Below, piece by piece: positions 1,338 through 18,499 of a DNA stretch of 64,000 bases. Position 1 is the first letter of the stretch. Every line of letters begins with the position of its first letter. The notes under the pieces were generated by a model. It was given only the letters and a program-made list of their open reading frames with translations, was not told where the DNA came from and ran no database searches. Origin of the DNA: Flavobacterium sp. N2038. GTDB lineage: Bacteria > Bacteroidota > Bacteroidia > Flavobacteriales > Flavobacteriaceae. The stretch lies in NCBI RefSeq assembly GCF_025947185.1, contig NZ_CP110001.1, forward strand, positions 2,418,001 to 2,482,000, in the 5' to 3' direction. The translations under genes and the position numbers were made by a program.

Positions 1338-2552
1338 TTATCTTAATTTTCCAACAAATATTACACTTCCGCCAATCGCCTCAGAAATTGCTTCAAAATC
1401 AGCAGCTCCTTTTTGTTTCAAAAGGCTGAATTTACCGTCAGGAGCAGTGATATTACCATAATATTCTACACCATCAATTGTACCAACAGTATAAACGGTA
1501 CCGTATTTTTCAAAAGAAGTAAAAGGTTCCACTTTTAATGTTTTTAAATCTACAAGAGCAAATTTTGTTGGAGCATTATACCAGTCAGCAGGTTTTGCCG
1601 GTGGAGTAAATGTATTGTCTAAGTATTGAGCAAGAGCTTTATCTCCGTGAACATACGCCACAACATTTACTGAATGCGCATTTAGAGCAGCTTTTAAATC
1701 TACAAAAAAGTTAGGATCAAATGTTCCGTTAGGATTTACTTTTAATAATCCGCTTGTAGTTGGATTACCAGTTACAGTACTATAATCTAATGAAATGGCA
1801 CTTTCACGAGATGGTCTGTAATACAGTGAACCATCAGTTCCTTTTGCAAACGTATGATACCCCATCGACATACGAGAATCTTTAACATAAGTAACTGCTT
1901 TTGTTGTTAAATCAAAAACGGCAATTTGTGCATATTGTAGAAACCTGTTATAATCAGTAGGAGTTGCAGCAATTGGTAAGATGATTTTTTTTGCAGAAGT
2001 AACATAACTCATATAAGTTGCTGTTTTGATACCTGCATCATTACTAAATGGCAATGGAGTAACGGCTATAGTTTCTGTGATAGCCATAGTTGTTGGGTTG
2101 AACTTAATAATTTTGCCATCATTTAAGGCAAAGAAATAAGCTTCTGTCTCAGACACGAAAGCAGGAGGACCAAAAGTACCACTAACACCTGTACCTGTAA
2201 GACTTAAAGCATCTGAAGCCGAAATTTTCATATCATTACTTACATTGTATTTGGTTAAGGTTGATGCTGTACCATTCCAAACATAAGGGTGTTCGCCATA
2301 GGAATAAATTGTAGCACCCGGACCTATCTCTGTCATCGTTTTGTAATCAAGAGTTGAAGGGAATTTGTCGTATGCTCCTAAATAAAAAACTCTGCCTCCG
2401 GGAGTATTTACACGTACTGACGCTATAACTGCCGGGTTATTACCCTGACCTTCATCTTTCTTAGAATCATCTGAACTACATGATGTTAATGCAAATACCG
2501 AGCACATTATGGCTAATGCAGCATGTTTTATAAAAAATCGATTTGTTTTCAT
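1338..2552 (-). CDS. DUF4374 lipoprotein, XusB-like siderophore-binding surface protein
   Basis: This 404-residue protein has a lipoprotein signal peptide with lipobox ALTSC at about residues 21-25, followed by SSDDSKKDE, a typical surface-export-like tail. The rest is repetitive beta-propeller-like sequence with no catalytic motif and matches the DUF4374 family. The family member XusB of Bacteroides thetaiotaomicron is a surface lipoprotein that captures ferric siderophore for the TonB receptor XusA. Here the gene lies 21 bases after the TonB receptor gene on the same strand, so the two are probably co-transcribed. I infer that it binds the siderophore made by the adjacent biosynthetic genes. 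No XusC-like inner-membrane partner is present nearby. Confidence 0.82.
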   Translation of the reverse strand: MKTNRFFIKHAALAIMCSVFALTSCSSDDSKKDEGQGNNPAVIASVRVNTPGGRVFYLGAYDKFPSTLDYKTMTEIGPGATIYSYGEHPYVWNGTASTLTKYNVSNDMKISASDALSLTGTGVSGTFGPPAFVSETEAYFFALNDGKIIKFNPTTMAITETIAVTPLPFSNDAGIKTATYMSYVTSAKKIILPIAATPTDYNRFLQYAQIAVFDLTTKAVTYVKDSRMSMGYHTFAKGTDGSLYYRPSRESAISLDYSTVTGNPTTSGLLKVNPNGTFDPNFFVDLKAALNAHSVNVVAYVHGDKALAQYLDNTFTPPAKPADWYNAPTKFALVDLKTLKVEPFTSFEKYGTVYTVGTIDGVEYYGNITAPDGKFSLLKQKGAADFEAISEAIGGSVIFVGKLR

Positions 2553-4970: not shown

Positions 4971-4989
4971 TTTATTTAGAATAAATAAA
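4971..4989. promoter_or_regulatory. Palindromic operator, candidate Fur-type box, upstream of the TonB receptor
   Basis: The sequence TTATTTA-GAA-TAAATAA is a perfect 7-3-7 inverted repeat, extending to 8-3-8 here. It lies 28-46 bases upstream of the receptor ATG. The same 17 bases recur upstream of the nitroreductase-led operon. Sharing by two siderophore units points to a common regulator. Fur is my inference, because the repeat does not match the E. coli consensus closely. Confidence 0.55.
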
Positions 4990-5051: not shown

Positions 5052-6143
5052 TTAATTTAAAGCCTCTATGATTTTTGATTTTTGGTTCTTTTTTCTGAGG
5101 AAATCTAAAAGTATTTGAACAGAAAAAGTCAGTATAATATAAAGTACTATAAGTGCCAGTACAGTTGATATTCCATTCTCTCTAAAACCAAAGATGCCTT
5201 TACCCCAGGAAATTAGAATCCATTGTGTCATGTACATTGAAGTGAGGTTCTTACTGCAATATTTTAATAGTTTTATAAATTTATTTTCTTTGACATTTAT
5301 AGATATTTTAAAAATAATCCATAGGAAAATTAATGTCCAGCCTGCGAAATAAACAACACCGCCCGGGCCCATATGGTAAAAACCATTGTAATTATAAGCT
5401 CCGTAGATAAAAACCAATGGCGCACCCAAAGCAAGAAACAAAAAGCTGGTATACAGCATGTTTTTAAACAATTTAGGACTGTCATAATTAAGTTCCTGGT
5501 ACCATTTGCCAAAAAACATTCCTATGATAATAAAAGACATCCACGGAAAAACAGGAAAATAAATGTATGCCGGAAAATCATTACTGAAAAGTAGATCCAG
5601 CACATAATTAATAACAGGATAATCTATATTGATGCCGCTGACTTCTCTGGATACTAATGCTATTAACAGGCCTATGGCTAAGATTACATATTTATTGGTG
5701 ACATATTTTCTAATAAAACCAATGAACAGCAAAGACATTCCTGCTAATTGAAGAATATCACCCAATAGCATCAAATATATATATTGCTGCTCTATTGGCC
5801 CATGCCATCCGTATCTTTGTATAAAATTATCTGGCGCAAAACCAAAAATGACAGGAAAAATGAACTTTAAAAAATTCATGAAAAGAGCAGCAGCTAAAAG
5901 CAGTCCGCCACGTTTTAAAGAACTTTTAAGGCTTTGATGACGAGAGGTCATAAAGGTTATTCCCATACAGATTAGAAAAATAGAAGTTCCTCTGCCCAGA
6001 AAAACAATAAAACTCCCAATAAAGGTTTCCGACTGTGATTTGACATCTGCAAATGTCAGTAGTGTATGTATGATTATCATGCCTATAACACTCATTCCTT
6101 TTATTAGATCCAGTGCTGCAATTCTTTTACTTTGCTGTTCCAT
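5052..6143 (-). CDS. Multi-pass membrane acyltransferase-like protein (DUF1624 / HGSNAT-like)
   Basis: This 363-residue protein has about ten hydrophobic helices and a start typical of DUF1624/heparan-glucosaminide acetyltransferase-like proteins: KRIAALDLIKGMSVIGM, then a His (IIHTLL) in the first helix. Members of this broad group move acyl groups onto substrates at or across the cytoplasmic membrane, but many are uncharacterised. The gene is last in the siderophore operon, 57 bases after an adenylating enzyme that itself follows a carrier protein. That order suggests it receives an acyl group from the carrier protein and attaches it to the siderophore or a membrane acceptor. This role is inferred; an unrelated envelope function is possible. 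Confidence 0.7.
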   Translation of the reverse strand: MEQQSKRIAALDLIKGMSVIGMIIIHTLLTFADVKSQSETFIGSFIVFLGRGTSIFLICMGITFMTSRHQSLKSSLKRGGLLLAAALFMNFLKFIFPVIFGFAPDNFIQRYGWHGPIEQQYIYLMLLGDILQLAGMSLLFIGFIRKYVTNKYVILAIGLLIALVSREVSGINIDYPVINYVLDLLFSNDFPAYIYFPVFPWMSFIIIGMFFGKWYQELNYDSPKLFKNMLYTSFLFLALGAPLVFIYGAYNYNGFYHMGPGGVVYFAGWTLIFLWIIFKISINVKENKFIKLLKYCSKNLTSMYMTQWILISWGKGIFGFRENGISTVLALIVLYIILTFSVQILLDFLRKKNQKSKIIEALN

Positions 6144-6200
6144 AGTTCTTTATTTTTAATCTTTATGTCTTATAACCTATTAGTTATTAAATAGTTGAAA

Positions 6201-7616
6201 TTACTCTGTAACCGTTTTTACAGCTGCTAGTGAATTTTCGTTTTCATTGATATGTCTATTTAAAGCAGGATAATCTACTTTACCATTAACAGTCAGTGGT
6301 ATCTGATCGAAATAATAGTTTTTTAATGAACTGGCATGTAATCCCAGTTTTTCCTTTAACAGTTGTGTAATGGTTTGACGCAGTAAAGATGGATCCTGAT
6401 GTATGATTCCGAGATATTTATCCTGAACACTTATACAGATGAAAGTTTGTCCACCTAATTCATTTTTTAGTAAAACTTCAACTTCATCAAGGTTTAAACG
6501 AACTCCGAATAGTTTTATAATGCGTTTAATGCGTCCCTTAATATGATAATAACCCAATTCATCTTTTTCTGCCAAATCACCGGTATAAAGTTTGTCAGTA
6601 TGATTATAATCCTGTAAATCAAAAATGTTGTTAGCATAACCTCCGGAGACATTGGGGCCGTAATAAATAAGTTCTCTTGTTTTTTCATCAATTTCAAACC
6701 TTCCGTTTTTTACAGGAAAACCTATAGACGTTCCTTTAGTTTGGAAATCTTTTGGCGGTAAAAAAGCCATTCTGCCGCTGGCTTCGGTTTGTCCGTATTG
6801 TGCGAAAAACTGTTTGCCATAAATTTGGGTATAATCTGAAATGACGTTTGCCAATTCTTTATTCATCATTCCTCCTGTGTGGGTCAAATAACGTACAGAA
6901 GGAGTGTCTTTTTTAAAGAAACCAAAACGATGCAGTAACTCATAAAAATAAGGAACACCGCTTAGTGTAGAAAAACCATACTCGGCAAGATCTGACCAAA
7001 ATTCTTTTTGAAGCGCATCCCTGTCAGTACATACAATTGTATTTGCTTTGATGCAATTTGTTGTAAAAATTGAAAAGCCGTAGACAAAATTAACAGGTAC
7101 ATTTAACGGAACAACATCGTGTTCCGTTATTGGCATGTACTCCATGATAGATAAGGCATTCTGAACCAGATTGTGATCTGAAATCTTAACAAATTTAGGT
7201 GACCCTGTAGTTCCTGAAGTGCTCATTAAAAGCTTAATATCACCATGAATAGGAGACAGAAGAATTTCTTTTCTTTTAAAGACTGAAATAGCTGCAGATA
7301 CCTGTTTTAACTCATATTCTTCAACCACTGTCCTTGACGGATCGAAGATATAAGCAGGTCTGTATTCATTTTCAAGATTTTGCTTAAACGCAGGATGTAA
7401 TCCCGCGTTAAGCAATGCTACTGTGTACTTTTTTTGATAAAAATTCAAAAACGTTTCAATTGCCGGCAGCTGATTGTCATTATAAATAAAAACAACTGCA
7501 CGCAAATTTTCAATGTCTAAAGATTCATGTAAATCGGCAAACGTTTTAACAACTTTGGTTTTTGCATCTATAAAATTTAATTTTTTATTTTTTTGAATTA
7601 AATCATAAAGTCCCAT
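6201..7616 (-). CDS. Stand-alone AMP-forming adenylation enzyme (acyl/aryl/amino acid-AMP ligase)
   Basis: The 471-residue protein carries the ANL-superfamily core motifs in order: A3 loop LMSTSGTTGSPK, A5 AQYGQTEASGRM, A7 YTGDLAEKDELGYYH, A8 hinge KGRIKRIIKLFGVRLN and C-terminal NGKVDYPAL with the catalytic Lys. These enzymes activate a carboxylate with ATP and load it onto CoA or a carrier protein. A carrier protein gene lies directly upstream, so that protein is the likely acceptor. The chosen ATG (protein MGLYDLI) leaves 16 bases after the carrier stop and has AAGAAG about 8 bases before it. An earlier in-frame ATG 33 bases upstream would overlap the carrier gene. The specificity-determining residues could not be assigned. 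Confidence 0.85.
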   Translation of the reverse strand: MGLYDLIQKNKKLNFIDAKTKVVKTFADLHESLDIENLRAVVFIYNDNQLPAIETFLNFYQKKYTVALLNAGLHPAFKQNLENEYRPAYIFDPSRTVVEEYELKQVSAAISVFKRKEILLSPIHGDIKLLMSTSGTTGSPKFVKISDHNLVQNALSIMEYMPITEHDVVPLNVPVNFVYGFSIFTTNCIKANTIVCTDRDALQKEFWSDLAEYGFSTLSGVPYFYELLHRFGFFKKDTPSVRYLTHTGGMMNKELANVISDYTQIYGKQFFAQYGQTEASGRMAFLPPKDFQTKGTSIGFPVKNGRFEIDEKTRELIYYGPNVSGGYANNIFDLQDYNHTDKLYTGDLAEKDELGYYHIKGRIKRIIKLFGVRLNLDEVEVLLKNELGGQTFICISVQDKYLGIIHQDPSLLRQTITQLLKEKLGLHASSLKNYYFDQIPLTVNGKVDYPALNRHINENENSLAAVKTVTE

Positions 7617-7632
7617 AGTTTCTTCTTTTGAA

Positions 7633-7875
7633 TTATTGGATTTCAACACCGTTTTTCTTCAATATTGCTTTTATTTTATCAACGCTTCCCATTTCCAGAA
7701 TGTCTTCCATCGGAATTGAAACATTATAAAATTTCTCCAGCTCATCAACCAAAAGCAAATGACTCATGGAATCCCATTCTACAATACCCTGGTATTCTAA
7801 ATCAGCTGTAATGGATTCTACCGGTATTTCAAATGCAGTTGCAAATACTTGATGTAATTCTTGTGTTGTGCTCAT
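7633..7875 (-). CDS. Acyl/peptidyl carrier protein
   Basis: This 80-residue acidic protein has the phosphopantetheine attachment signature EWDSMSHLLLVDELE, with Ser36 as the expected attachment site, and the four-helix pattern of carrier proteins. Its sequence is unlike a housekeeping AcpP (no DSLD), which suits a dedicated carrier. It sits between the MATE exporter gene and the adenylating enzyme gene, both on the same strand with short gaps. I infer that it carries the activated acyl or amino acid unit used by this locus. A 4'-phosphopantetheinyl transferase gene is not in the window. Confidence 0.9.
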   Translation of the reverse strand: MSTTQELHQVFATAFEIPVESITADLEYQGIVEWDSMSHLLLVDELEKFYNVSIPMEDILEMGSVDKIKAILKKNGVEIQ

Positions 7876-7912
7876 AATAATCTTGTTTTAATTTGTTTAT
7901 ACTTTGTTATTT

Positions 7913-9319
7913 TTAAACTTTAGTTAATTTCCATTTTCCTGTTCTGAATATCGTAATACAGCCAAATGCCAGTACCAATTCTGAAATTAAGATGGCAGCA
8001 AAAATGCCTTTTGGACCAAAACCTAATGCTACTCCAAAGACATAGGAAAGCGGTATTTGTATCACGTAAAACATAAGAATGTACAGCATGGTAACAATCA
8101 TTACTTTTCCGGCAGCATTAAGCGCTCTGGAAATGACCATGGTGTAACCTAATAATACATAGGCAATAGAAATAATGTGAATGTAAGTTGTGCTGTTGTC
8201 GACTACTTCGGGCACATCAGAAAAGATTCTGACAACGGGATCTGCTATAAAAATCCATACTATTGCCACCGAAATCAAAAAGCACATATTGATCATGCCT
8301 GCCCGCCAAACTGATTTTTCGGCTCTATCGGGCTGCTGTGCGCCCAAATTTTGTCCGGTTAAAATTCCTGCAGCATTGCCAATACCCCAAGCCGGAGTAG
8401 TGGCTATCGAAGCAACTCGCTGTGCTATTATATAACCTGCCAGTGCATTGCCTCCAAAATGAGAAACAATTTTGATCATAAACAGCCAGCTCGATGCAGG
8501 AATCAAATACTGCAGCATGCCTCCAAAAGCAAGTCTCAGTACTTTATTGAATATTTCGCGATGAATTGCCAGCTGTTGTTTTCCAATTTGAATAATGGTT
8601 GTTCCTTTAATTAAATGGAAAGCCTGATAACTGAGTCCTGTAAAACGGGCTAGAGCGGTAGCGATACCAACGCCTAAAAGCCCATAGGCAGGAACAGGAC
8701 CCCACCCAAAAATAAGCAGCGGACACAGAAGTATGTTTAATATATTAGACAGCCAAAGTGTGCGCATTGCCATAGAAGCATAACCCGCACCTCGGAAAAT
8801 ACCATTTAGCGCAATACGGATAATAATGAAGCCGCAGCTGGCAAACATTACTTTTGCATACAAACTGCCTTGTTTTATCATTTCTGGAGAAAGTCCTACG
8901 AGACTTAATATTTCATCACTCCATATAAAACATATTAAGCTTATTACAACACCGCAAATAACACTTATGTTTACTACCTGTCCGGCTGTAACACTTGCTT
9001 CTTTAAAGTTCTGCTCGCCAACGCGCCTTGCAATTAAGGTCGAAGCGGCAATGCTTAAACCTATAGAGACGGAATAAGAAAAGCTGATAACAGACTCTGT
9101 GGAACCAACAATAGAAACTGCCGATGCCCCAAGTTTACTCACAAAAAATAAACTGGCACAAACAAAAACAGATTCCATTACCAGTTCTAAAACCATAGGA
9201 ACGGCAAGCAGGACAATTGCTCTATTAATACTGCCTGATGTGAATTTTTTCTCTCGGCCTAATACTGCGGTAAGAAACAAATCAGTATAGGATTGAAGCC
9301 TTAATACAACTACTTTCAT
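7913..9319 (-). CDS. MATE family efflux transporter, probable siderophore exporter
   Basis: The 468-residue protein has twelve hydrophobic helices in two similar halves, as expected for MATE proteins (NorM/DinF group), which export compounds using Na+ or H+ gradients. Typical segments include AVPMVLELVMESVF near the start and AAGILTGQNLGA about two thirds along. Its ATG overlaps the stop of the upstream NIS synthetase by four bases (ATGA), so translation is probably coupled. The position between biosynthetic genes suggests export of the finished siderophore across the inner membrane; that is inferred from context. Confidence 0.88.
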   Translation of the reverse strand: MKVVVLRLQSYTDLFLTAVLGREKKFTSGSINRAIVLLAVPMVLELVMESVFVCASLFFVSKLGASAVSIVGSTESVISFSYSVSIGLSIAASTLIARRVGEQNFKEASVTAGQVVNISVICGVVISLICFIWSDEILSLVGLSPEMIKQGSLYAKVMFASCGFIIIRIALNGIFRGAGYASMAMRTLWLSNILNILLCPLLIFGWGPVPAYGLLGVGIATALARFTGLSYQAFHLIKGTTIIQIGKQQLAIHREIFNKVLRLAFGGMLQYLIPASSWLFMIKIVSHFGGNALAGYIIAQRVASIATTPAWGIGNAAGILTGQNLGAQQPDRAEKSVWRAGMINMCFLISVAIVWIFIADPVVRIFSDVPEVVDNSTTYIHIISIAYVLLGYTMVISRALNAAGKVMIVTMLYILMFYVIQIPLSYVFGVALGFGPKGIFAAILISELVLAFGCITIFRTGKWKLTKV

Positions 9320-11169
9320 AATTGGTGTTGTATTGTTTCGCCGCTAATCTCTGTAAACTCGTTCATCTCGTATTGCTTAATTACATAAAGCGGATTAGGA
9401 AGTTTACTTCCTTTTTTCGGTACGGCAAAACCAGTCTGTTCCGCATATCCGTTATTAAGCAGTTTTAAACTATTGATATAAAATCGTTTAAACTCCGGCT
9501 CAAAAAGATTGTACTTTTCAAATCGATCTATGAGATGTGGGTTACTCTGCTGATATTCTTCAATTGAACTTATTACGGTTTTCCAAAAGAGGTGTTCATC
9601 ATAATCCATATGAGTATGTAAAATATCCGACAGGTATCTAAAAAACGCATCAAAAACACCTATTAGAATAAACAATGGCGTATTTTCTTTATTTGATGAT
9701 TGTATAAGACCGTCTTTAAGTTCAGCCGGTAATTTTGCTTTGGCTTCTTCAGTTAAAACAATATCATCAACAAAATCTTTAATAATAATACGCTGCGGTA
9801 TTCCGTTTTTCATGACTAAAATGATATTCTCGCCATGAGGTGTTACACATAAAGAATGCTGATAATAAATATGCAGCAAAGGCTTTAAGTAGGCTTCCAG
9901 ATATTGTTCCAGCCAGCGTTGAGTGCTAAGTCCGGAAACGTTTATCAGTTCCTGAAGAAAAGGACGATCGTTATCATCGATGTATAATAAAGAGGCCATC
10001 GTCATGAGGTTTTCGTCTGGTTTACGGTATTTTTCGGCACTTTCTCTCCATAATGCACCTAACATTTCACGATAATGATACGGACTGTCGGTTATGGAAT
10101 TGTACTGTGGATGACGGTAAGAAACCGTAGCCACTTCGCCTAATAACACGACTTCTTTCTCCTGAAAATAAGGATCTTTATCGAGCATTTCTTTAACCCA
10201 TTTTGTTACCCTTGGCGCAATATCCATTTGTTTTGGAGATAAGCCTCGGATATTTCCTGTGCTCAAAATAGATATTGCCGTTTTTACATAATGTTTGGAA
10301 GGATAACTTAAATTAAAGAAAGTTCTAATGCTTTGCTGAGGCGAATATATATCGTCACTTTTGCCCAAAATAACTAAATACTGGTTTGCGAGATCCTGGT
10401 GAAATTGAAGCAAAATCTTATTGTTCAACTGCCAGGGATGCACGGGAATAAAAACGTAATCTTCAACAATAAGTTTCATATCACGAAGCTTTTCCTGAAA
10501 TTTGTTATATACTTCGGCGCCTAATTCTTCGGTATAAAAATCATTAAAATTGATCGTTTCCAAAGCGTTAAATGCAGCTCTTTTTTTATGAGCAGCCAGC
10601 CAGTACAAATCCGTATTCTTATTGGCTTCGGGGGCGTAATTGTGATAATCACTATTGTTGAAACCAACGCGTCCTTTGTTTGCAATTACCCACGGATGTC
10701 CTTCCATTTGATGTTCAATAGTCTGATAATCGGCTTGTGTAAGTTCAGAAGCAGTCAGCTTTTCTCTGGTGTACAAATGAGCATCAGCGTATAAAGTGTT
10801 GAGAAGTTCTTCGGTATATTTTGCCAATGTAAAAGAATCTATTCCAAAGGTTTTTTGTAATTCCATAAAAAAACAAATAACATCTTTGGCAGGCGAGGCT
10901 GTGCCGTTTTCCCATCTTTGGATACTTTCTTTTTCAATATGCCAATATTCTAAAAGTCTTGGATATGCCGAAAAAGTATAGTAAACCTCCGTAAGATCAG
11001 TTGTTAGTTTAAAATGGGTGATACCCTCTTTTTTACTTCCTGTAATGGCTGGTTTAGCAACATCTTCGTGCATTAATTCGGCTAAACTCTTGGCTAATAA
11101 ATTGATATTTACTTTTTCCCAAACCTGAGCGGTAAAAACTTCTATGTGTGGTATTGTTTCTATATTCAT
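9316..11169 (-). CDS. NRPS-independent siderophore synthetase (IucA/IucC family)
   Basis: NIS synthetases use ATP to join a carboxylate such as citrate or succinate to an amine or hydroxylamine. This 617-residue protein has family landmarks: GHPWVIANKGRVGF, FIPVHPWQLNNKIL, SIRTFFNLSYPSKHYVKTAIS, LYIDDNDRP and TPHGENIILV, with FhuF-like sequence near the end (IIKDFVDDIVL). The start was set at the ATG giving MNIETIPHIE, 13 bases after the monooxygenase stop; upstream in-frame codons run into that gene. It is one of two NIS enzymes in the operon, as in aerobactin- or schizokinen-like pathways where two successive couplings are needed. Subtype (A, B or C) cannot be assigned by eye. Confidence 0.93.
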   Translation of the reverse strand: MNIETIPHIEVFTAQVWEKVNINLLAKSLAELMHEDVAKPAITGSKKEGITHFKLTTDLTEVYYTFSAYPRLLEYWHIEKESIQRWENGTASPAKDVICFFMELQKTFGIDSFTLAKYTEELLNTLYADAHLYTREKLTASELTQADYQTIEHQMEGHPWVIANKGRVGFNNSDYHNYAPEANKNTDLYWLAAHKKRAAFNALETINFNDFYTEELGAEVYNKFQEKLRDMKLIVEDYVFIPVHPWQLNNKILLQFHQDLANQYLVILGKSDDIYSPQQSIRTFFNLSYPSKHYVKTAISILSTGNIRGLSPKQMDIAPRVTKWVKEMLDKDPYFQEKEVVLLGEVATVSYRHPQYNSITDSPYHYREMLGALWRESAEKYRKPDENLMTMASLLYIDDNDRPFLQELINVSGLSTQRWLEQYLEAYLKPLLHIYYQHSLCVTPHGENIILVMKNGIPQRIIIKDFVDDIVLTEEAKAKLPAELKDGLIQSSNKENTPLFILIGVFDAFFRYLSDILHTHMDYDEHLFWKTVISSIEEYQQSNPHLIDRFEKYNLFEPEFKRFYINSLKLLNNGYAEQTGFAVPKKGSKLPNPLYVIKQYEMNEFTEISGETIQHQL

Positions 11170-11182
11170 TTTAAGTTTGGTA

Positions 11183-12504
11183 TTAAATACTAATTTCTTC
11201 CGCTTTTTCTGCGACAATACCTGAAAGGTCAAAATCCTGAAAAGCAATCCTCTTTTCTAATTTATAGACTTCACGTTTTGCTACTTCATTAATGATATAG
11301 GAATTGCGATATGCGCCCATGCCCAAATCTGATGAAATGTAGCTATGTGTATGAATTTCTGCATTCTGCACAAAAATTTCGCTGCCGTTATGATCTATAC
11401 TGTAGTTTCTTTTTACATCATAACTGCCAGTTGAAGTTCTGCTGATGCGATGCTGTATGTCTTTAAGAAATTGAGGTTCCTGATAATGATATCCGGTGCC
11501 TAAAATTACATAGTCGGCGTGTTCTGTAAACTTTTTATGCTGTTCTACCTGCTCCAGATGCAATTCATAATTATTATGGATTCCTGGAGTTATATCATCC
11601 AATTGTATGTTTGGTCTGATCTTTACCCCAATATCATCGTTATCTACGCTCAGGGTATACAGATGATCGTAAATCTCGTTTAGCAAATCAAAATTTACTC
11701 CTTTGAATTGAGATTTCTGGCGATCCAGCATGACACTTCGAGTCGAAGACGGCATTTGATGGAAATAATCGATGTAATCCGGCGATGTATGCTCCAGAAC
11801 AAGTTTGGAATATTCCATAGCAAAAAAGCGATCCGGACGGGAATACCAATTCAGCTTTAGGTTTTTAGGTCTGTTTTGAAGCAGATCAAAGAACACTTCG
11901 GCCGCACTTTGCCCAGAACCAATTACAGTAACGGTATCCTGCTCTAATATTTCCTCTTTTCTGAATAAATAACTCGAGGTATGGGAAACATTTTTCATTT
12001 CTTTTAGTTCGACAAACTCAGGAAGTACAGGTACTGTACCCGTTCCTAATACTAATTTTTCGCAATAGTAAATTTTGGTTTGATCTTCCTCTTTGTGGAA
12101 TACGTGTAATTCATAAAGACCGTCTTTATACTGAATTTCTTTTACACTAGAGGAGAAGCGGCAGTTTTTGAGCTGCTTGATTACCCATTGACAATATAAA
12201 TTATACTCTTTGCGCAGTACAAAGAAATTTTCGCGGATAAAAAATTTATATAAGCGATCTGTCTTTTTAAGAAAATTTAAAAAACTAAATTTACTTGTAG
12301 GATCGGCCATTGAAACACAGTCGCATAAAAATGGAGTCTGCAAGGTAACATGGTCAATAAGCAAACCGGATGCCAATTGAATTGCTCTTTTTGATCAAAA
12401 AAAAGTGATGAAACGTCATCAACCGGTTCTAACAAAGCAGCTAAGCCTAAATTGAAAGGTCCAATTCCGATTCCTATTAGTGAATATACTTTACGATCTT
12501 CCAT
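11183..12504 (-). pseudogene. Lysine/ornithine N-monooxygenase (IucD type), frameshifted as given
   Basis: The 5' part (from the ATG at 12504) encodes SLIGIGIGPFNLGLAALL, an FAD-binding motif, and runs to QFNWHP. There the frame shifts: family members continue W-H-P-G-hydrophobic, and GLLIDHVTLQTPFL appears in the next frame. Adding one base near 12366-12369 would restore a protein of about 440 residues, the normal length. The downstream part keeps the NADPH motif VIGSGQSAAEVFFDLL and the C-terminal ILGTGYHYQ. The enzyme N-hydroxylates a diamine or lysine to make the hydroxamate precursor. Both flanking genes are intact and tightly spaced. The lesion may be a true mutation or a one-base sequence error; as written the enzyme would not be made. 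Confidence 0.88.
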
Positions 12505-12505
12505 A

Positions 12506-14962
12506 TTATTGGTTTATAAGATTAGGTTCTGCTTCAGCGTTTATTACAATGTCTTGGTTTTGAGGGAATTTAGCCCAGTACCATTCGCGATAGCAAAAAT
12601 TAAGATTTGAGGTTTTGTGCGGCATTTCGATTACCTTATCGATTTTAAAGCCATGAAAAGCTTTGTTCATCATCGAAGCTCTGGAATCGACAGCACCTTC
12701 GCCAACCATTTTACCCACTTCGGGTTGAGCAAATACATAATCGATCATGCATTGTGTAGAGGGTGAAACAAATTTCAGTTTAGGATCTGTTGGTGCAATA
12801 AATTGATGCGTTCCGTAATCAGTAGGCAGCACATCATAATAATCTCCCAGCACATCACGGGTAGGCCAGTATACTTCGATATTAAAAGTCGGTTCTCCGT
12901 TAGCCATTCCTATATAACTGTACAAACCATCTCCAGGAAGTAAGGTTCTGTAATAGGTTTCAAGTTCGCGCAGAGGCCAGTCCATTCTCCAGGCTGCTTT
13001 TGCGTGGTCACGATGAAACCATTCGTGCAGCATTTCTAAGTCATTATCTATATCAAGAGGGCGTAAACTTATAGTCACATCTTCCTTAGGGAAATAACGA
13101 TTGTAGACTAATTCTTTTCCTTTTGGATTTATTAATTGCTCTGAGAAAAAGCGTTTGTGTAAAACATTTGGGAAATTGATACGGGTAACGCCAGCAGGAT
13201 TGCCGCCGCAGTCAATATCATTAAGTGCCGTAAGCAAATTGCCTTTCACTTTCCAATATCTACTTTCTAGAATAAATGTAACCAGACCGCTTTCGTCTTC
13301 TTTTTGTAAAACCTCTAAAGCATCATATAAAATATTTAGGAGTTTTTTTTCATCTGCAAGTCTGTTAGCGCCAAAAGTATTTACAACGGCCAGTATATTT
13401 CCTACCCAGAAATAATGAAGCAGTAAATTGAATAAACGATCGTCCGGAATAAACATTTTTCCGTTTTCAGAGAAACCTGGTACGATATCATTTAGTTGAT
13501 CTTCAAAAGATTTTCGGAATAAAAAACTTTGATTATCACGAAAAAATAGTTTTTCGGGCATGAACGCTCCGTCCAATTGTACAAGTGTATTTTGTTGATG
13601 CCACTCGCAAACCATTCCCTGCTCGTTAAACATTTTTACTACACCGTTAAGTATAATATCAATGTATTTTCTGAACCAAATCTCACTGGTTTTTTCTATA
13701 GATAATCCGGTTTGTTCAGCAGCTTTTTGAATGATGTTCTCCATTCTGGAAGGATCTCCCAATAGGCTGTCCTGACATAAAGAAGCTAATAAAGAGACAT
13801 TATTTTCTTTTTCAGCTCCGGTACTTTTAAACGGATTGTAGCGCACACTGGTAGAAAAAGGGTCCAGTACATTTCCGTTATAGGATACAGATATAAAACC
13901 CGGATCACAAATCAATTCAATATCAGGATAGGTTTTCTTTACGTTGTCTCCCCAGGCAGTCTGCATTAATCGAGATACATCATATCCTCTGTAAAGTTCA
14001 TGATAATGATTAATACGTTCTGCGCCTGTAATTTTTACGTGAAGCGAAAATTTATACATATAATCGCTTTCGTTATTGTATACGGTTCTTACAGAAGAAG
14101 TTGCTGTAAATTCTTTTCCAAATTCACCTAAATCTATAAGCAGATTTTCTTTTACCAGTGTATCAAATACGGCTTGGTTTTTAAAATGAGCAGCTTCCCA
14201 CGGATGAATCGGAAGTACTTTCCACTGCGGATTTTTTTCCAGTAAATCCTGCAGTTTTTTATCTTCTTTACCTGCTTCTAATAGGGCTGCTTTTGCAAAA
14301 TCAGAAGGTAAAATATTGTCTACAGATTTTTCGGTAACCAAATCAGGATGCACTAAAAAATAATGCAGCTTAAAATATCCGCCAGTTTCGGGAGCATATT
14401 TTAAAACTTCGGCTTCCGTAAATCCTTCGCGTCCTTTGGTAAGAGGATGGAGTAAATGTCCAGCCGGAAATAATTGTTCCGCTTCAATAAAGGTCATTTC
14501 AGCTTTATTAAAATCCTGTCCGGAAGTTTTAAAATGCTCTAAAAACTGCGCTATTTTTTCGGTGCTCAGCTGCATTCTTTTTTTTACATTTTTAGAATCT
14601 GCCAGTGGATACTGCTGTCTTATATGAGTTGTAATTAGTTCTAGAAGACGATCTGCATCTATTTCTTTTATAGTTTCAGTAGTAAGGTCACGTTCCATTA
14701 CCGGAAAATCATATAAATGCCTGAAGGTTTCAGATCTGTAGCGTACTGGCGCATAGACTTCAACGTTATCAACAGGAAAATCCAATTTTAGATGAAGTTT
14801 ATGATTATACTTTGATATATAAGATTTCAGCACAGGATCGTATTTCGGAATCCCTTCATAAAAACTGCTGTTGCCTAATTCTCGCACGCAGCAATTAAGT
14901 AAAATAGTAAACGTAATATGGACTGCTTCCTGAGCAATCTCTTTAGGAGAAGATGTAGTCAT
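12506..14962 (-). CDS. Fusion of NIS synthetase (IucA/IucC) and GNAT hydroxylamine acyltransferase (IucB/AlcE-like)
   Basis: The first ~610 of 818 residues are an IucA/IucC domain: LFPAGHLLHPLTKGREGF, VLPIHPWEAAHFKN, SSVRTVYN, VCEWHQQNTLVQLDGA and LFFRDNQSFLFRKSF. The last ~190 residues match the siderophore-type GNAT acyltransferases (IucB/RhbD): ISLRPLDIDNDLEMLHEWF, AAWRMDWPL and MMNKAFHGFKIDKVIEMP. The fusion would acylate the N-hydroxylated amine and then couple it to a carboxylate. The gene overlaps the decarboxylase end by 20 bases and is one base from the monooxygenase start, so the block is translated as a unit. Similar activities are separate genes in aerobactin and rhizobactin loci. 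Confidence 0.92.
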   Translation of the reverse strand: MTTSSPKEIAQEAVHITFTILLNCCVRELGNSSFYEGIPKYDPVLKSYISKYNHKLHLKLDFPVDNVEVYAPVRYRSETFRHLYDFPVMERDLTTETIKEIDADRLLELITTHIRQQYPLADSKNVKKRMQLSTEKIAQFLEHFKTSGQDFNKAEMTFIEAEQLFPAGHLLHPLTKGREGFTEAEVLKYAPETGGYFKLHYFLVHPDLVTEKSVDNILPSDFAKAALLEAGKEDKKLQDLLEKNPQWKVLPIHPWEAAHFKNQAVFDTLVKENLLIDLGEFGKEFTATSSVRTVYNNESDYMYKFSLHVKITGAERINHYHELYRGYDVSRLMQTAWGDNVKKTYPDIELICDPGFISVSYNGNVLDPFSTSVRYNPFKSTGAEKENNVSLLASLCQDSLLGDPSRMENIIQKAAEQTGLSIEKTSEIWFRKYIDIILNGVVKMFNEQGMVCEWHQQNTLVQLDGAFMPEKLFFRDNQSFLFRKSFEDQLNDIVPGFSENGKMFIPDDRLFNLLLHYFWVGNILAVVNTFGANRLADEKKLLNILYDALEVLQKEDESGLVTFILESRYWKVKGNLLTALNDIDCGGNPAGVTRINFPNVLHKRFFSEQLINPKGKELVYNRYFPKEDVTISLRPLDIDNDLEMLHEWFHRDHAKAAWRMDWPLRELETYYRTLLPGDGLYSYIGMANGEPTFNIEVYWPTRDVLGDYYDVLPTDYGTHQFIAPTDPKLKFVSPSTQCMIDYVFAQPEVGKMVGEGAVDSRASMMNKAFHGFKIDKVIEMPHKTSNLNFCYREWYWAKFPQNQDIVINAEAEPNLINQ

Positions 14963-16460
14963 TTCCGTGTTTTTTTATAATTGAAAGGATATTATTAATG
15001 TGTGCTATAGTCGTTAATGGGTTCAAAATGGTGAACTTCAGATAAAAAATGCCATTTACTTTTGTACTTGCTACTAAGACTTCACCGTTAAAAAACATTT
15101 TCTTTTTGATATGTAAATTCATTTTACAGCAGTCACCCGGCCAGCCGGCTAGTTTATATCTAAAAACCAAAACACTTAAATCAGAATCTGTTAAAAGTTC
15201 AAAATCTTTGTCGTTGTCTATAATTTCAGCCGTTTGCTGTGTAGTTTCGATAATGGTCTCCGTATACTGTCCCAGTTTAGTTCTTCCCATGTGGCGCAGT
15301 GTACACCATAGTTTTAAAGCGTCAAAACGACGTGTACTTTGTACCAGTGACTTATTAATTTGAGCCGGAAGTTCATCATAATCCTGCTCCTTAGGATTTA
15401 GATAATCGGCGTGGTGTTTTATAATATGAAGATGCTGTTTGTTTCTCACCATAAAAGCACTGCTGCAGATAGGCTGAAAGAAAGATTTATGGTAATCAAT
15501 CGTAACAGAATCAGCTTGTTCGATACCGTTTAGAAGATGTTTGTATTTATCTGTCAGCAGTAATCCACAGCCATAAGCAGCGTCAACATGCATCCATAAT
15601 TTATGTTCTCTTGCCAGAACTGCTATTTCAGATAATGGATCAATATTACCGAAATCTGTTGTACCGGCTGTAGCCACAATAGCAATAGGAATGTTGCCTT
15701 TTTCCAGTTCTTCAGTAATGGCTAGCTTTAATTTTTTAGCATCCATTCTATAGCGGTTATCTGTAACAACCTGAACGATGGACTGCTCGCCAAGTCCTAA
15801 AATAGAAGCATTTTTTTGATTACTGAAATGAGATTTCTCAGAAACAAAAATTCGGAACTTACTGGCTTCCGGAGGACATCCATTTAATTTGATATTCCAA
15901 TTCAGGTATTTCAAAGCAAAATAATCCCTTGCCAAAAGCAGTCCCATTAGGTTACTCTGCGAACCGCCGCCTGTAAAAATACCATCACAATCGGCATTAT
16001 ATCCAATTTGTTCACCTGTCCAGGCAATCAATTTTCTTTCTATAAATGTTCCTCCGGCACTTTGATCATAGGTATCCTGCGACGAATTAATAGCGCTTAT
16101 CAGTACATCGGCTGCTAAGGCAGGAATCACTACAGGGCAGTTTAAATGGGCTATATATTCCGGTAAATGATAGGCAGTTGCATGGTTGACATAAATTTCA
16201 TCTATCTCATTCCAAAGGCTTTCATAATCTTGTAGTGGTACATCTAAGTTTACAGCTTCCACTTTATTTCGTATTTCCTCAGGTTTAATACCGCTGAATG
16301 GAATTTTGGTGTTTTCAAGAAAACCATTTACACGTTTTTGCACTAATGCTATGGCGTTGTTATATTCTGCGCCGGAATTTTCATGAAAAATATCCTGGTA
16401 AAATTGGTCTGCAGGATTTTTAACTAAGACATCCTGATCGTTGTCTAATAGGTTTTGCAT
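14943..16460 (-). CDS. PLP-dependent group II decarboxylase, probable (hydroxy)lysine decarboxylase
   Basis: This 505-residue enzyme shows the group II amino-acid decarboxylase pattern: FTGGGSQSNLMGLLLARD, ATAGTTDFGNIDPL, HVDAAYGCGLLL (Asp293 contacts the PLP nitrogen) and TIDYHKSFFQP with PLP-binding Lys325. Relatives in siderophore loci include the desferrioxamine lysine decarboxylase DesA and 2,4-diaminobutyrate decarboxylase RhbB. No diaminobutyrate aminotransferase is present, and a lysine-hydroxylase-like oxygenase gene lies close by. Lysine or 4-hydroxylysine is therefore the best substrate guess, giving cadaverine or 3-hydroxycadaverine. From memory, a Flavobacterium homologue next to a lysine hydroxylase was reported to decarboxylate hydroxylysine, which would fit. 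Confidence 0.9.
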   Translation of the reverse strand: MQNLLDNDQDVLVKNPADQFYQDIFHENSGAEYNNAIALVQKRVNGFLENTKIPFSGIKPEEIRNKVEAVNLDVPLQDYESLWNEIDEIYVNHATAYHLPEYIAHLNCPVVIPALAADVLISAINSSQDTYDQSAGGTFIERKLIAWTGEQIGYNADCDGIFTGGGSQSNLMGLLLARDYFALKYLNWNIKLNGCPPEASKFRIFVSEKSHFSNQKNASILGLGEQSIVQVVTDNRYRMDAKKLKLAITEELEKGNIPIAIVATAGTTDFGNIDPLSEIAVLAREHKLWMHVDAAYGCGLLLTDKYKHLLNGIEQADSVTIDYHKSFFQPICSSAFMVRNKQHLHIIKHHADYLNPKEQDYDELPAQINKSLVQSTRRFDALKLWCTLRHMGRTKLGQYTETIIETTQQTAEIIDNDKDFELLTDSDLSVLVFRYKLAGWPGDCCKMNLHIKKKMFFNGEVLVASTKVNGIFYLKFTILNPLTTIAHINNILSIIKKHGNDYIFS

Positions 16461-16482
16461 AATGATTAGTTTTAGAATTGGG

Positions 16483-17118
16483 TTATTTAAAATAGGTTAC
16501 TTTGTTAGAAACAGGAGTTCTTTTTTTTCTTGACGGTTCAATATCTTCGGGATAGTATCCAACATAAATTAAACCGAGAGATTTTTCATTTTCGGCCAGA
16601 TCAAATTGCTTTACATAATCAATTGCACCTGCCGATGTACTCCAGTAACTCCCAATATTATGGGCAGTGCAGGTGAGTGCTATGTTTTGAACAGCAGATG
16701 AAACGGCGGCAACTTCTTCCCATTCCGGAAGGTCTATTTTGTGATTACGAACCATGACAACGCCAATCACACAAGCTGAATTAAGAGGATATTCTTTAAG
16801 CAGATTGTACTTTTCGAGAGCAGTTTCGGCAGAAAATTTTTCATAATAGAAGTCTTTGTAATAGGCAGCCAAAAAGGATCCTAGTTTCTCTAAATAGCCA
16901 TCCTTTAAAACAATAAACCTCCATGGCTCGGTCATTTTGTGTGTAGGGGCATAAGTTGCGTTTGTTAAAATTTCATTTAATAATTCATCGGGTATATTTT
17001 GCTTTACAAACTCATCTGCGTAAACACTTCTTCTGGTTCGGATGATTTTTGAAATTTTATTTTGACCAGGTTGAAAATCTGACACCTTAAGTTTGCTGGG
17101 TTTGGTACTAATATTCAT
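16483..17118 (-). CDS. Nitroreductase family flavoprotein in siderophore operon
   Basis: The 211-residue protein has the nitroreductase fold sequence: IIRTRRSVYADEF (FMN phosphate contacts), ATYAPTHKMTEPWRFIVL, and AVQNIALTCTAHNIGSYWS in the second half. Such FMN enzymes reduce diverse electrophiles with NAD(P)H. It is the first gene of the long minus-strand siderophore operon, 22 bases before the decarboxylase. A role in reducing ferric siderophore for iron release, or a redox step in synthesis, is possible but only inferred. Residues 1-25 (through SDFQPGQNK) are an extra N-terminal stretch before the core. Confidence 0.85.
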   Translation of the reverse strand: MNISTKPSKLKVSDFQPGQNKISKIIRTRRSVYADEFVKQNIPDELLNEILTNATYAPTHKMTEPWRFIVLKDGYLEKLGSFLAAYYKDFYYEKFSAETALEKYNLLKEYPLNSACVIGVVMVRNHKIDLPEWEEVAAVSSAVQNIALTCTAHNIGSYWSTSAGAIDYVKQFDLAENEKSLGLIYVGYYPEDIEPSRKKRTPVSNKVTYFK

Positions 17119-17188
17119 ATTTTTTTAAAAAATTATTTAAGAAAATTCTTTTTATAAATTATAAAACAAATATATTTGTAAGTAAATC

Positions 17189-17205
17189 TTATTTAGAATA
17201 AATAA
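17189..17205. promoter_or_regulatory. Palindromic operator, candidate Fur-type box, in the divergent siderophore promoter
   Basis: This is an exact 17-base copy (TTATTTA-GAA-TAAATAA) of the palindrome before the TonB receptor gene. It sits 71-87 bases upstream of the nitroreductase ATG and about 180 bases upstream of the oxygenase ATG, so it could govern both directions. A TATATTTG box, matching the Bacteroidota -7 element on the minus strand, lies at 17167-17174 between the palindrome and the nitroreductase gene. Confidence 0.55.
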
Positions 17206-17386
17206 AAACAGTGCAAGCAAATGTAGAAATTAATCTTTATAAAAAAAATAAAACAAAAAAAATATATGAAATTCTGTACATTTTTAAAATGTATCTGAGT
17301 GATGTTTTATTTTTATACTGGTTGATTTCAACCGTTTGTGTTTTTTGTTTGTCCAAATTTTTATTAACAATTAAATAAACTTATAA

Positions 17387-18499
17387 ATGAAATCACACTC
17401 ATTAATTGAAGATGAAATACCAGTAAAAGAAAGTTACGTTTATTCAATTCCTACTGGCCCGCTGATAGTGGAGGTTACCCCACAGGAAAGAAATATTTTG
17501 TCTAATGTGGGCACTCTGCTGGAGAAGGCATTCCAGAGTTATGAAAATCCAGATTATATAGCGGCACTTCATCTTTATTCTTTCCAGCTTCTTCCGGAAC
17601 GAATAGCCAGAATCTTAAGCCGTTTTGGAACAGATTTCTCGGCAGACCAATATGGAGCCATTATTTTTAAAGGCCTTTTGGAAGTGGATCAGGATCATTT
17701 GGGGCCGACTCCCGCGAACTGGCAGAGTGCTGATTACTCAAAACTCAATAAATACGGCTTTATTTGTTCGCTGCTGCATGGCGCAGTTCCTTCTAAACCT
17801 GTTCAGTATTATGCACAACGAAAAGGCGGAGGAATTCTTCATGCTGTTATTCCGGATGAAAAAATGGCTGTTACACAGACAGGATCAGGATCAAAAACGA
17901 ATCTGTATGTTCATACTGAAGATGCGTTTCTTCTTCATCAGGCTGACTTTTTAAGCTTTCTTTATTTGCGAAATGAAGAGAGAGTTCCTTCAACACTTTA
18001 CTCGGTACGATCACATGGCGGGGTTAATGAAGTAATGGAAAAGCTTTTTAGGCCTATTTATCAATGTCCTAAGGACGCCAATTATGATGAAGAAATTAAT
18101 AATGGTCCGCTGGCTTCTGTTCTATACGGAAATAAAGAATTGCCTTTTATTAGATTCGATGCAGCCGAGCAGATATTTAATGAAAAGGCTGGGCAAACAC
18201 CCGAAGCTCTTTACAATTTGACTGAATTCTGGAACGAGGCAAAAGAGTTGATTAATAGTGATTATATACCGGATTCCGGAGATGTTGTATTTGTCAATAA
18301 TCACTTATGTGCCCATGGAAGAAGTGCTTTTACGGCAGGGCAGAGGGAGGAAAATGGTAAGATTGTGAAGTGCGAGAGACGACAGATGCTCAGAATGATG
18401 AGTAAAACCAGTTTAATTCATATAAGAGCGATGACGCAAACAGATGATCCCTATTTTGTTATGGAAGAACATTTAGGAAAAGTTTTTGATCAGGATTAA
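17387..18499 (+). CDS. Fe(II)/2-oxoglutarate oxygenase of clavaminate-synthase-like family, probable lysine hydroxylase (KDO type)
   Basis: This 370-residue protein has the facial-triad pattern of clavaminate-synthase-like oxygenases: YVHTEDAFLLHQADF (His176, Glu178) and VFVNNHLCAHGRSAF (distal His310), followed by CERRQMLRMM with an Arg that would bind 2-oxoglutarate. Enzymes of this group from Flavobacterium and Chitinophaga (KDO enzymes) hydroxylate free L-lysine, mostly at C4. The gene is divergent from the siderophore operon and shares its regulatory region, so hydroxylated lysine is the likely feed for the decarboxylase. Exact regiochemistry cannot be told from sequence. Other beta- or gamma-hydroxylases (arginine, asparagine) belong to the same family. 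Confidence 0.85.
   Translation: MKSHSLIEDEIPVKESYVYSIPTGPLIVEVTPQERNILSNVGTLLEKAFQSYENPDYIAALHLYSFQLLPERIARILSRFGTDFSADQYGAIIFKGLLEVDQDHLGPTPANWQSADYSKLNKYGFICSLLHGAVPSKPVQYYAQRKGGGILHAVIPDEKMAVTQTGSGSKTNLYVHTEDAFLLHQADFLSFLYLRNEERVPSTLYSVRSHGGVNEVMEKLFRPIYQCPKDANYDEEINNGPLASVLYGNKELPFIRFDAAEQIFNEKAGQTPEALYNLTEFWNEAKELINSDYIPDSGDVVFVNNHLCAHGRSAFTAGQREENGKIVKCERRQMLRMMSKTSLIHIRAMTQTDDPYFVMEEHLGKVFDQD

Follow-up and report, generated by a model that had tools for sequence, protein, structure and literature searches.

A conserved Flavobacterium locus pairing a lysine 4-hydroxylase with an NIS operon, very probably for a chryseochelin-type siderophore

Why does a lysine hydroxylase gene stand back to back with an NIS siderophore operon, and what would the two make together? 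We examined such a locus in a window of 64,000 nucleotides (the whole stretch of DNA analysed) from Flavobacterium sp. N2038. The arrangement is divergent, with the hydroxylase gene on the plus strand and the NIS operon on the minus strand:

17387..18499, plus: lysine 4-hydroxylase, KDO-type Fe(II)/2-oxoglutarate enzyme (6euo match)
17189..17203, plus: core of a Fur-like box, TTATTTAGAATNAWT, within the divergent promoter region common to both sides
16483..17118, minus: nitroreductase-family flavoprotein (PF00881)
14943..16460, minus: group II PLP decarboxylase, proposed 4-hydroxylysine decarboxylase (5o5c match)
12506..14962, minus: IucA-like (type A) NIS synthetase fused to a GNAT acyltransferase (PF04183, PF06276, PF13523)
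11183..12504, minus: diamine N-monooxygenase gene (IucD-type, DfoA/DesB-like), broken (5o8p-like pieces)
9316..11247, minus: second IucA/IucC NIS synthetase, DesD/DfoC/AlcC-like (type C; 7tgn match)
7913..9319, minus: predicted MATE-family exporter (PF01554)
7633..7875, minus: acyl carrier protein (ACP), 80 aa (PF00550, 28 bits against a cut-off of 20.8)
6201..7613, minus: small AMP-forming acyl ligase, proposed ACP loader (PF00501)
5052..6143, minus: membrane acyltransferase, HGSNAT/Acyl_transf_3 type (PF07786, PF01757)
4972..4986, plus: Fur-like box, second copy, shortly before the receptor gene
2574..4943, minus: TonB-dependent receptor, MxcH-like (below that model's cut-off)
1338..2552, minus: putative lipoprotein downstream of the receptor and conserved together with it (no match in Pfam or NCBIfam)

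An earlier sequence-only reading had named the oxygenase, the decarboxylase, the IucD-type monooxygenase, two IucA/IucC synthetases, the GNAT fusion and the MATE exporter. All are present as listed, although that gene list was incomplete, having missed the ACP, the receptor and the break in the monooxygenase frame. Gene identities, conserved active-site residues, linkage and the shared promoter box are read directly from the DNA; the gene set is conserved, and a chance grouping is ruled out. From these comparisons we consider it very probable that the locus serves to make, export and take up a siderophore of the chryseochelin type. The sequence-only reading knew of no described compound that matched, which was mistaken: chryseochelins are dihydroxamates assembled from citrate, 3-hydroxycadaverine and fumarate. 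According to the accessible text of the 2023 description, chryseochelins A-C come from Chryseobacterium CHR2, CHR5 and CHR6, producers identified by 16S, and chryseochelin A combines a citrate core and 3-hydroxycadaverine in a dihydroxamate that bears two fumaric acid appendages (PMC9989332). The gene set that we derived from the compound structure (lysine hydroxylase, decarboxylase, N-hydroxylase, GNAT and two NIS synthetases) is all present in the window, the N-hydroxylase gene being broken.

The window KDO aligned with crystallised KDO5 (6euo), an L-lysine 4-hydroxylase, at 682.7 bits, with 294 of 370 residues identical (79%). All 13 KDO5 residues checked are present (H176, E178, H312, R334 and nine others), and the 2-His-1-carboxylate iron site and the 2OG arginine are in place. 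Across an alignment of 39 KDO rows, 12 of the 13 positions were invariant; the variable one, 233, is Tyr in the window, while the Chryseobacterium side has Leu in 13/13 rows, L011 has His and L086 has Phe. Tyr233 has been proposed, on the basis of calculations, for C4 selectivity (PMC11066847), and its replacement in these relatives counts against the chryseochelin-type reading. The Flavobacterium enzymes FjohKDO and FspeKDO yield (4R)-4-hydroxylysine in the accessible text of PMC12930750. The identity to KDO5 and the complete set of checked residues lend support to the earlier proposal that lysine would be hydroxylated at C4.

The hydroxylase and decarboxylase genes are tightly linked. KDO was divergent from the decarboxylase in all 28 KDO genomes of a Flavobacteriales-order sample (395 genomes), with a gap of 279-962 bases. 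In a genus sample of 199 genomes the decarboxylase occurred in 15/15 KDO genomes; in 14 the two genes diverge within 1019 bases, and in the remaining one they are split over contigs. Pooling both samples gave 41 distinct KDO genomes, with the decarboxylase in every one and 40 divergent within about 1 kb. The earlier suggestion to look for the gene set in other flavobacteria was borne out, operon and KDO recurring in, for example, 8/8 Chryseobacterium loci fetched. A class sample of 395 genomes (3 positives) had no KDO beyond Flavobacteriales, nor did one appear among 13 Chitinophagaceae genomes in a guessed family search without a positive control; KDO enzymes are on record from C. pinensis and Niastella.

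Among solved structures the decarboxylase best matched the desferrioxamine decarboxylase 5o5c (466.5 bits), and it scored 363.4 bits against the RhbB L-2,4-diaminobutyrate decarboxylase model NF052646, under the NCBIfam cut-off of 900. Because KDO-linked decarboxylases group in a single clade, and residues fixed in that clade lie beside the catalytic motifs (T95, Q128, N214, A366 and S375; 5o5c differs at all of these positions), the comparison suggests that they are tuned to hydroxylysine. The 5o5c match and the clade residues also favour the earlier claim of decarboxylation to 3-hydroxycadaverine, making the route from lysine through 4-hydroxylysine to 3-hydroxycadaverine a well-supported prediction for the building block. 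Could KDO instead be a bystander, serving something else beside an operon for an ordinary cadaverine siderophore? Related KDO-less operons do exist, and that of G176 is otherwise of the KDO type, but the 41/41 co-occurrence, the shared promoter with its Fur-like box, the variation of the decarboxylase residues with KDO presence and the 3-hydroxycadaverine in the known Chryseobacterium product, as given in the accessible part of its description, make this very improbable.

In the shared promoter, the box core TTATTTAGAATNAWT is flanked by TATATTTG (17171, plus strand) and CAAATGTA (minus-strand TACATTTG), which we take to be flavobacterial -7 boxes. A strict form of the promoter pattern, requiring both sides, fitted the window and 12/15 Flavobacterium loci but none of the 8 Chryseobacterium loci, whose box has a different right half. 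The 15-base box had 8 hits in the genome against about 5 expected under a rough composition model with only 4 simulated hits; this chance level is not low, so the case for the box rests on its placement and conservation. Seven of the 8 hits precede receptor, siderophore or DUF4198 genes. R. anatipestifer has the identical left half, ATTTAGAAT, in the Fur box shown in PMC10986502. A first guess at a Fur-type pattern gave only chance matches and was dropped, and no Fur motif was found in the accessible text of a Flavobacterium psychrophilum iron paper.

Receptor and lipoprotein genes adjoin the operon in all three relatives of locus type A with that flank (L078, L079, L087). The model closest to the window receptor is that of a myxochelin (catecholate) receptor, whose cut-off it does not reach, and the receptors of L080 (locus type B) and L082 (Chryseobacterium) have other best models; these points speak against the chryseochelin-type reading. 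By sequence, the protein encoded at 2574..4943 is likely to function in ferric siderophore uptake.

The pieces of the monooxygenase are closest to the desferrioxamine enzyme 5o8p, and since this gene and the decarboxylase (5o5c) are both nearest to desferrioxamine enzymes, we read them as diamine-pathway enzymes. For the synthetase part of the fusion protein the best chain was IucA 5jm7 (159.7 bits), and the GNAT part was closest to DfoC 5o7o. The second synthetase scored 452.5 bits with DesD 7tgn, 273.3 with IucC 6cn7 and 38.1 with IucA 5jm7. Both synthetases carry IucA_IucC and FhuF domains, one nearest IucA and the other nearest type C, which supports assignment of the pair as one type A and one type C enzyme, the classes for double citrate loading. 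With a DfoA-like monooxygenase, a GNAT and this NIS pair, the N-hydroxylation, acylation and double joining to citrate foreseen earlier remain the probable course. L086/G202 had looked like a one-synthetase variant, and was rejected as such because its second NIS gene sits just past the fetched stretch.

We infer each enzyme's substrate, the acyl group, the order of joining and the regulation as follows. KDO would hydroxylate free L-lysine at C4, and the adjacent decarboxylase would turn 4-hydroxylysine into symmetric 3-hydroxycadaverine, one amine of which the flavin monooxygenase would N-hydroxylate. Acylation of the hydroxylamine would fall to the GNAT; the group transferred is probably a C4 dicarboxylic acyl, fumaryl if chryseochelin is a guide, and may come from the AMP ligase and ACP. 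Citrate would then receive its first arm through the IucA-like synthetase and its second through the DesD/AlcC-like one, with export by MATE, re-uptake through the TonB receptor and presumably Fur-like control.

The source strain itself may not produce the siderophore. Its monooxygenase gene is split: ORF 12277-12504 holds the N-terminal part and ORF 11183-12376, in a different frame, the remainder; therefore either production has been lost or there is an assembly error at that site. A receptor-bearing non-producer, in which the pathway is dead and kept for uptake only, would be compatible with the chryseochelin-type reading, and we give it slightly less than an even chance. The break hits the sole IucD-type gene (a search of the genome found no second full copy), this gene is a single open frame in 42/42 relatives' loci, and one relative without an IucA/IucC gene (L027/G017) retains the receptor and a 3' remnant of KDO. 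Type-A relatives whose operon is intact include F. hungaricum and F. branchiicola strains (L004 and L005). Yet one indel in a single-contig genome is a possible sequencing error, and the remaining operon genes are open.

We also infer the roles of the ligase, ACP and membrane acyltransferase and the identity of the acyl group. The ACP adjoins the ligase gene in relatives' loci too. A structure search with the predicted ligase model (pLDDT 85.7) gave oxalyl-CoA synthetase and MenE as the best folds among the 50 matches listed, which span modest query-normalised TM-scores of 0.57-0.68 and also include FadD10 among other fatty-acid ligases and many ANL enzymes of varied substrates. Given these modest scores and varied substrates, the search leaves fumarate versus fatty acid unsettled. 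More distant ligase relatives lie in polysaccharide-biosynthesis-looking clusters, with an ACP match in 5/6; the one cluster run against Pfam has SDR, LuxE and LuxC genes beside the ligase. This shows a general ligase-carrier module, uninformative on the acyl group. Among KDO loci seen with that flank, the HGSNAT-type acyltransferase is confined to locus type A, and it had no match in 6 Chryseobacterium-side loci with the downstream flank (L082-L085, L106, L107). The nitroreductase was considered as the origin of the fumaryl double bond and rejected, since the junction between KDO and decarboxylase held no nitroreductase match in 8/8 Chryseobacterium loci.

Identity between the operon proteins and their Chryseobacterium counterparts is just 44-64%, so the acyl group may differ. 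The same building block could carry another acyl, giving dihydroxy-arthrobactin (acetyl) or a succinyl analogue, with ligase, ACP and acyltransferase only adding a late fatty-acyl tail. We hold this to be the lesser probability, though an appreciable one. It would fit the identity of just 44-45% between the fusion protein and the Chryseobacterium ones, the HGSNAT-type acyltransferase in the operon and the fatty acids on the amine of chryseochelin C, as described in the accessible text of PMC9989332. The fumaryl assignment fits better with a GNAT nearest DfoC and with a ligase model nearest to enzymes of short or dicarboxylic acids, even if FadD10 also ranks among the matches listed; moreover, the 6 Chryseobacterium-side loci lack an HGSNAT match although the genus makes a lipidated form. 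Calculated [M+H]+ values are 621.2250 for the fumaryl product (chryseochelin A), 625.2563 for succinyl and 509.2453 for acetyl; with two oxygens fewer, as expected in the absence of KDO, the fumaryl product would come to 589.2352.

A more doubtful idea is that the C4 hydroxyl acts as a linkage switch: an NIS synthetase would esterify citrate at this hydroxyl and leave an amine free, the ligase and ACP would cap that amine with a fatty acid, and hydroxylation would thereby decide whether the siderophore diffuses away or stays in the membrane. In Flavobacterium loci of type A, the membrane acyltransferase would join in this capping. Were the idea true, the ligase/ACP pair would have co-evolved as one module with KDO and the re-tuned decarboxylase, with a native role for the lysine 4-hydroxylases of biocatalysis.

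Returning to the chryseochelin-type reading, the conserved pathway is real and the compound class already known; a published gene assignment was not found in the literature searched, including the accessible text of PMC9989332. The locus thus offers candidate genes for a Ralstonia-inhibiting siderophore known by structure alone and a proposed native job for lysine 4-hydroxylases employed as biocatalysts. KDO-linked, KDO-lost and never-KDO decarboxylases form a natural contrast for substrate tuning of PLP decarboxylases at a few named residues, and the gene sets predict which Flavobacterium and Chryseobacterium strains produce the compound or have lost it.

Arthrobactin, nannochelin and aerobactin are built, as the window would have it, with type A and type C NIS synthetases, an N-hydroxylase and a GNAT; to our knowledge, their pathways have no lysine C-hydroxylase, ligase or ACP. 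The desferrioxamine/bisucaberin systems (DfoJ-DfoA-DfoC; DesABCD) are nearest to the window in decarboxylase, monooxygenase and GNAT, and as far as we know rely on a single type C synthetase, with no type A enzyme to load citrate. In Elizabethkingia anophelis, the iucA/C-iucB-iucD-ddc cluster shares decarboxylase, NIS, GNAT and monooxygenase with the window, is down under iron and is required for siderophore activity, according to the accessible text of PMC7221216; KDO, ACP and ligase had no match in the similar single-NIS loci L070-L073. Kineochelin was checked for its name, and its paper contains none of the terms cadaverine, hydroxylysine, citrate and dioxygenase. KDO5/FspeKDO and FjohKDO belong to the same enzyme family as the window KDO and, unlike the siderophore-linked enzyme here, are handled as biocatalysts in the literature, where a term search of three KDO papers found no mention of siderophores. 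Compared with Chryseobacterium loci, most Flavobacterium loci add the nitroreductase, and those of type A add the HGSNAT-type acyltransferase and another receptor. The chryseochelins have the product architecture that the window gene set predicts, and Chryseobacterium genomes share the operon and KDO.

The window holds a real, conserved siderophore locus within a 4.67-Mb, single-contig genome, laid out as follows:

17387–18499, plus strand: KDO, the L-lysine 4-hydroxylase gene, divergent from the operon
Minus strand, operon in order: nitroreductase-like gene, group II decarboxylase, IucA/IucC–GNAT fusion (synthetase 1), IucD-type monooxygenase, second IucA/IucC (synthetase 2)
Minus strand, continued: MATE exporter, 80-aa acyl carrier protein (ACP), AMP ligase, HGSNAT/acyltransferase-3 membrane protein
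Minus strand, after the HGSNAT/acyltransferase-3 gene: TonB receptor, then putative lipoprotein
17189: element TTATTTAGAATNAWT, in the promoter shared by KDO and operon
4972: second copy of TTATTTAGAATNAWT, ahead of the receptor gene

The operon's two IucA/IucC genes are the only ones found by a genome search. The monooxygenase gene is frame-broken, its N-terminal part lying in ORF 12277–12504 and the remainder, in a different frame, in ORF 11183–12376; a search of the genome found no second full-length copy. In relatives, all 42 loci where the gene was matched, whether KDO-bearing or not, have it as one open frame.

A sequence-only reading had proposed that lysine is converted through 4-hydroxylysine to a 3-hydroxycadaverine siderophore, and its hydroxylated-lysine inference stands. 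KDO scores 682.7 bits to the solved L-lysine 4-hydroxylase 6euo (294 of 370 residues identical), and identity to the window's KDO is 83–94% in the full-length Flavobacterium loci found (including one [Flexibacter]) and 59–62% in Chryseobacterium. We compared 13 positions of KDO5, 12 taken from PMC11066847 and H312 chosen by us as the distal iron histidine. The window keeps all 13, and 12 are invariant across 39 rows (KDO5, the window and 37 rows from the loci). Only position 233 varies: 24 rows have Tyr there, the 13 Chryseobacterium-side rows have Leu, L011 has His and L086 has Phe. Among solved structures, the decarboxylase is nearest to the desferrioxamine decarboxylase 5o5c, followed by a DABA decarboxylase. 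Since the monooxygenase piece best matches 5o8p (desferrioxamine biosynthesis), then 6xbb and putrescine N-hydroxylase, N-hydroxylation probably acts on the diamine, following decarboxylation. Joining citrate twice requires a type A together with a type C NIS enzyme, and the locus has both. Synthetase 1, of type A, scores 159.7 bits to IucA (5jm7) versus 29.2 to DesD, with a GNAT domain nearest DfoC, and synthetase 2, of type C, scores 452.5 bits to DesD, 273.3 to IucC and 38.1 to IucA.

The same operon occurs in Chryseobacterium. All eight Chryseobacterium loci among the 25 KDO loci share the gene order, including MATE, ACP and ligase, with KDO divergent; identities to the window are 62–64% for the decarboxylase, 44–45% for the fusion, 59–61% for the monooxygenase and 54–56% for synthetase 2, and none of the eight has a nitroreductase match. 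In the order sample, KDO was present in 28 and the decarboxylase (E <= 1e-80) in 37 of 395 genomes; the decarboxylase was divergent from KDO in 28/28 KDO genomes (gap 279–962 bases) and occurred without it in nine. The genus sample of 199 genomes gave KDO in 15 and a siderophore-type decarboxylase (at least 46% identity) in 24, nine of them without KDO. All 15 KDO genomes carried the decarboxylase, 14 divergently (gaps 926–1019 bases) and one, G131, split over contigs. The two samples overlap by two genomes, giving 41 distinct KDO genomes. A class sample (395 genomes) yielded three KDO positives, all Flavobacteriales, and misses some KDOs, since those of Chitinophaga and Niastella are known (PMC12930750).

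In the decarboxylase tree (57 rows, 48 different), the 38 KDO-labelled rows form one starred clade (100/98) together with two rows labelled KDO-less. Explaining the labels on this tree takes three changes, interpreted as a single gain and two losses. One of these two, F. psychroterrae (L009), actually has a KDO with one in-frame stop. The other, G176 (L041), keeps the promoter region (78% over 197 bases), beside which no KDO match is left. Comparing 31 distinct KDO-linked rows with five sister and 11 further KDO-less rows, we found 19 positions near-fixed in KDO rows and absent elsewhere (at most one row). These include T95, where KDO-less rows have I or V; Q128 of the NSSxDTYDQS motif (L, M or V); N214, three positions beyond the histidine of its motif (I or L); A366 (N); and S375 (T). 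In an alignment of 16 rows, all KDO rows have a one-residue insertion ahead of the QSTRRFD motif. At 95, 128, 214, 366 and 375, 5o5c carries residues of the KDO-less kind, and at 236 the KDO letter; G176, which lost KDO, keeps T95, Q128, N214 and A366 and has KDO-less letters at 331 and 375. Judged by motif position rather than coordinates, these residues would touch the substrate. Neutral substitutions, too, may become fixed along a deep clade, and the pattern therefore supports tuning to hydroxylysine without proving it. FjdA, an F. johnsoniae decarboxylase and possibly a counterpart of the operon enzyme, is reported to have 1.1% relative activity on 3-hydroxylysine (CadA = 100%; PMC9288024).

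Ligase and ACP were found in every KDO operon with sufficient fetched flank, and in G176. Close ligase copies (51–90%) occur in 17 of the 18 searched genomes behind the 25 KDO loci, coordinates place 16 of them next to the operon, and in G018 the copy sits on a different contig. The eighteenth is F. potami (G017), in whose genome no IucA/IucC gene was found. Neither gene has a match in the nine KDO-less loci L069–L077 (L069 is truncated where its contig stops). The predicted ligase structure (mean pLDDT 85.7) is nearest oxalyl-CoA synthetase and MenE, with modest TM-scores; the pair may serve to supply fumaryl groups or to add fatty-acyl tails. Distant ligase homologues (41–43%) occur in loci L100–L105, with ACP homologues in L101–L105, in surroundings that resemble polysaccharide clusters (SDR, LuxE and LuxC neighbours Pfam-confirmed in L101 only); they may form an uncharacterised acyl-supply module.

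Flavobacterium has at least two alleles of the operon, type A (the window, L003–L005, L007, L008 and L087) and type B, whose synthetases are ~50–55% identical to the window's. The HGSNAT gene is present in 3/3 type-A relatives for which this flank was available, and the type-B loci L068, L080 and L081 show no match to it; the best model for the L080 receptor is RhtA, under cut-off. L006 and L018 combine a KDO 92–93% identical to the window's with type-B synthetases, and L087 combines type-A synthetases (88–90%) with an 82% KDO and a 58% nitroreductase. Because these loci mix KDO and synthetases of differing types, comparison with window 9316–18499 points to swapping of the synthetase, or siderophore-core, block by recombination. 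In F. potami, which lies outside both co-occurrence samples, L027:6258–10320 retains receptor, lipoprotein and only a KDO 3' remnant, with the operon absent; this is a receptor-only genotype, possibly a cheater. L068 (G176; 14640–16600) is a KDO-type operon without KDO that retains promoter, ligase and ACP. L086 (G202) is rearranged, with two NIS genes following KDO on its strand and a GNAT protein lacking a synthetase domain match. Another KDO-less NIS operon of Flavobacteriaceae (L074–L077) has a separate GNAT and an HGSNAT-type acyltransferase, plus a nitroreductase match in L076 and L077; nitroreductase and HGSNAT are recurring accessories.

The promoter element TTATTTAGAATNAWT lies upstream of KDO in 13/16 full-length Flavobacterium loci (L003–L018) and 8/8 Chryseobacterium loci. 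The window genome has eight exact copies, versus ~5 expected by a first-order model (from four simulated hits) and none for the reversed-pattern control. Seven precede TonB receptors, the siderophore operon or a DUF4198 gene adjoining a receptor, and the eighth an uncharacterised 118-aa gene. Of these eight Fur-like boxes, those at G000:C1:62038, 375352, 380247, 3751784 and 3752670 stand ahead of TonB receptor genes or the receptor-side DUF4198 gene and likely belong to an iron regulon of N2038. TTATTTAGAATNAWT has its left half in common with the R. anatipestifer Fur box ATTTAGAATTATCCTAAAT, whose promoter was tested with Fur by EMSA (PMC10986502); a shared bidirectional promoter that contains a Fur box is described for R. 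anatipestifer too (PMC11967795).

That no described compound matches, as first proposed, proved wrong. Chryseochelin A was reported in 2023 from three soil strains assigned to Chryseobacterium, at genus level, by 16S. It is a dihydroxamate built on citrate that contains 3-hydroxycadaverine and two fumaric acid appendages. In its isomer B, one citrate arm is attached to the hydroxyl as an ester, and in C the amine thus freed additionally carries a fatty acid (PMC9989332). The authors leave the biosynthesis to be proven by further studies, and the word 'cluster' does not occur in that paper; PMC11734721 and PMC11927942, in the parts seen, merely cite chryseochelin. A search of a literature library that covers few subscription journals found no paper linking a lysine 4-hydroxylase with a siderophore, and a gene assignment may exist in print elsewhere. 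As far as the literature was searched, what is new beside the known chryseochelins is a probable gene set for compounds of this type, along with its distribution across Flavobacterium and the residues that mark its decarboxylase.
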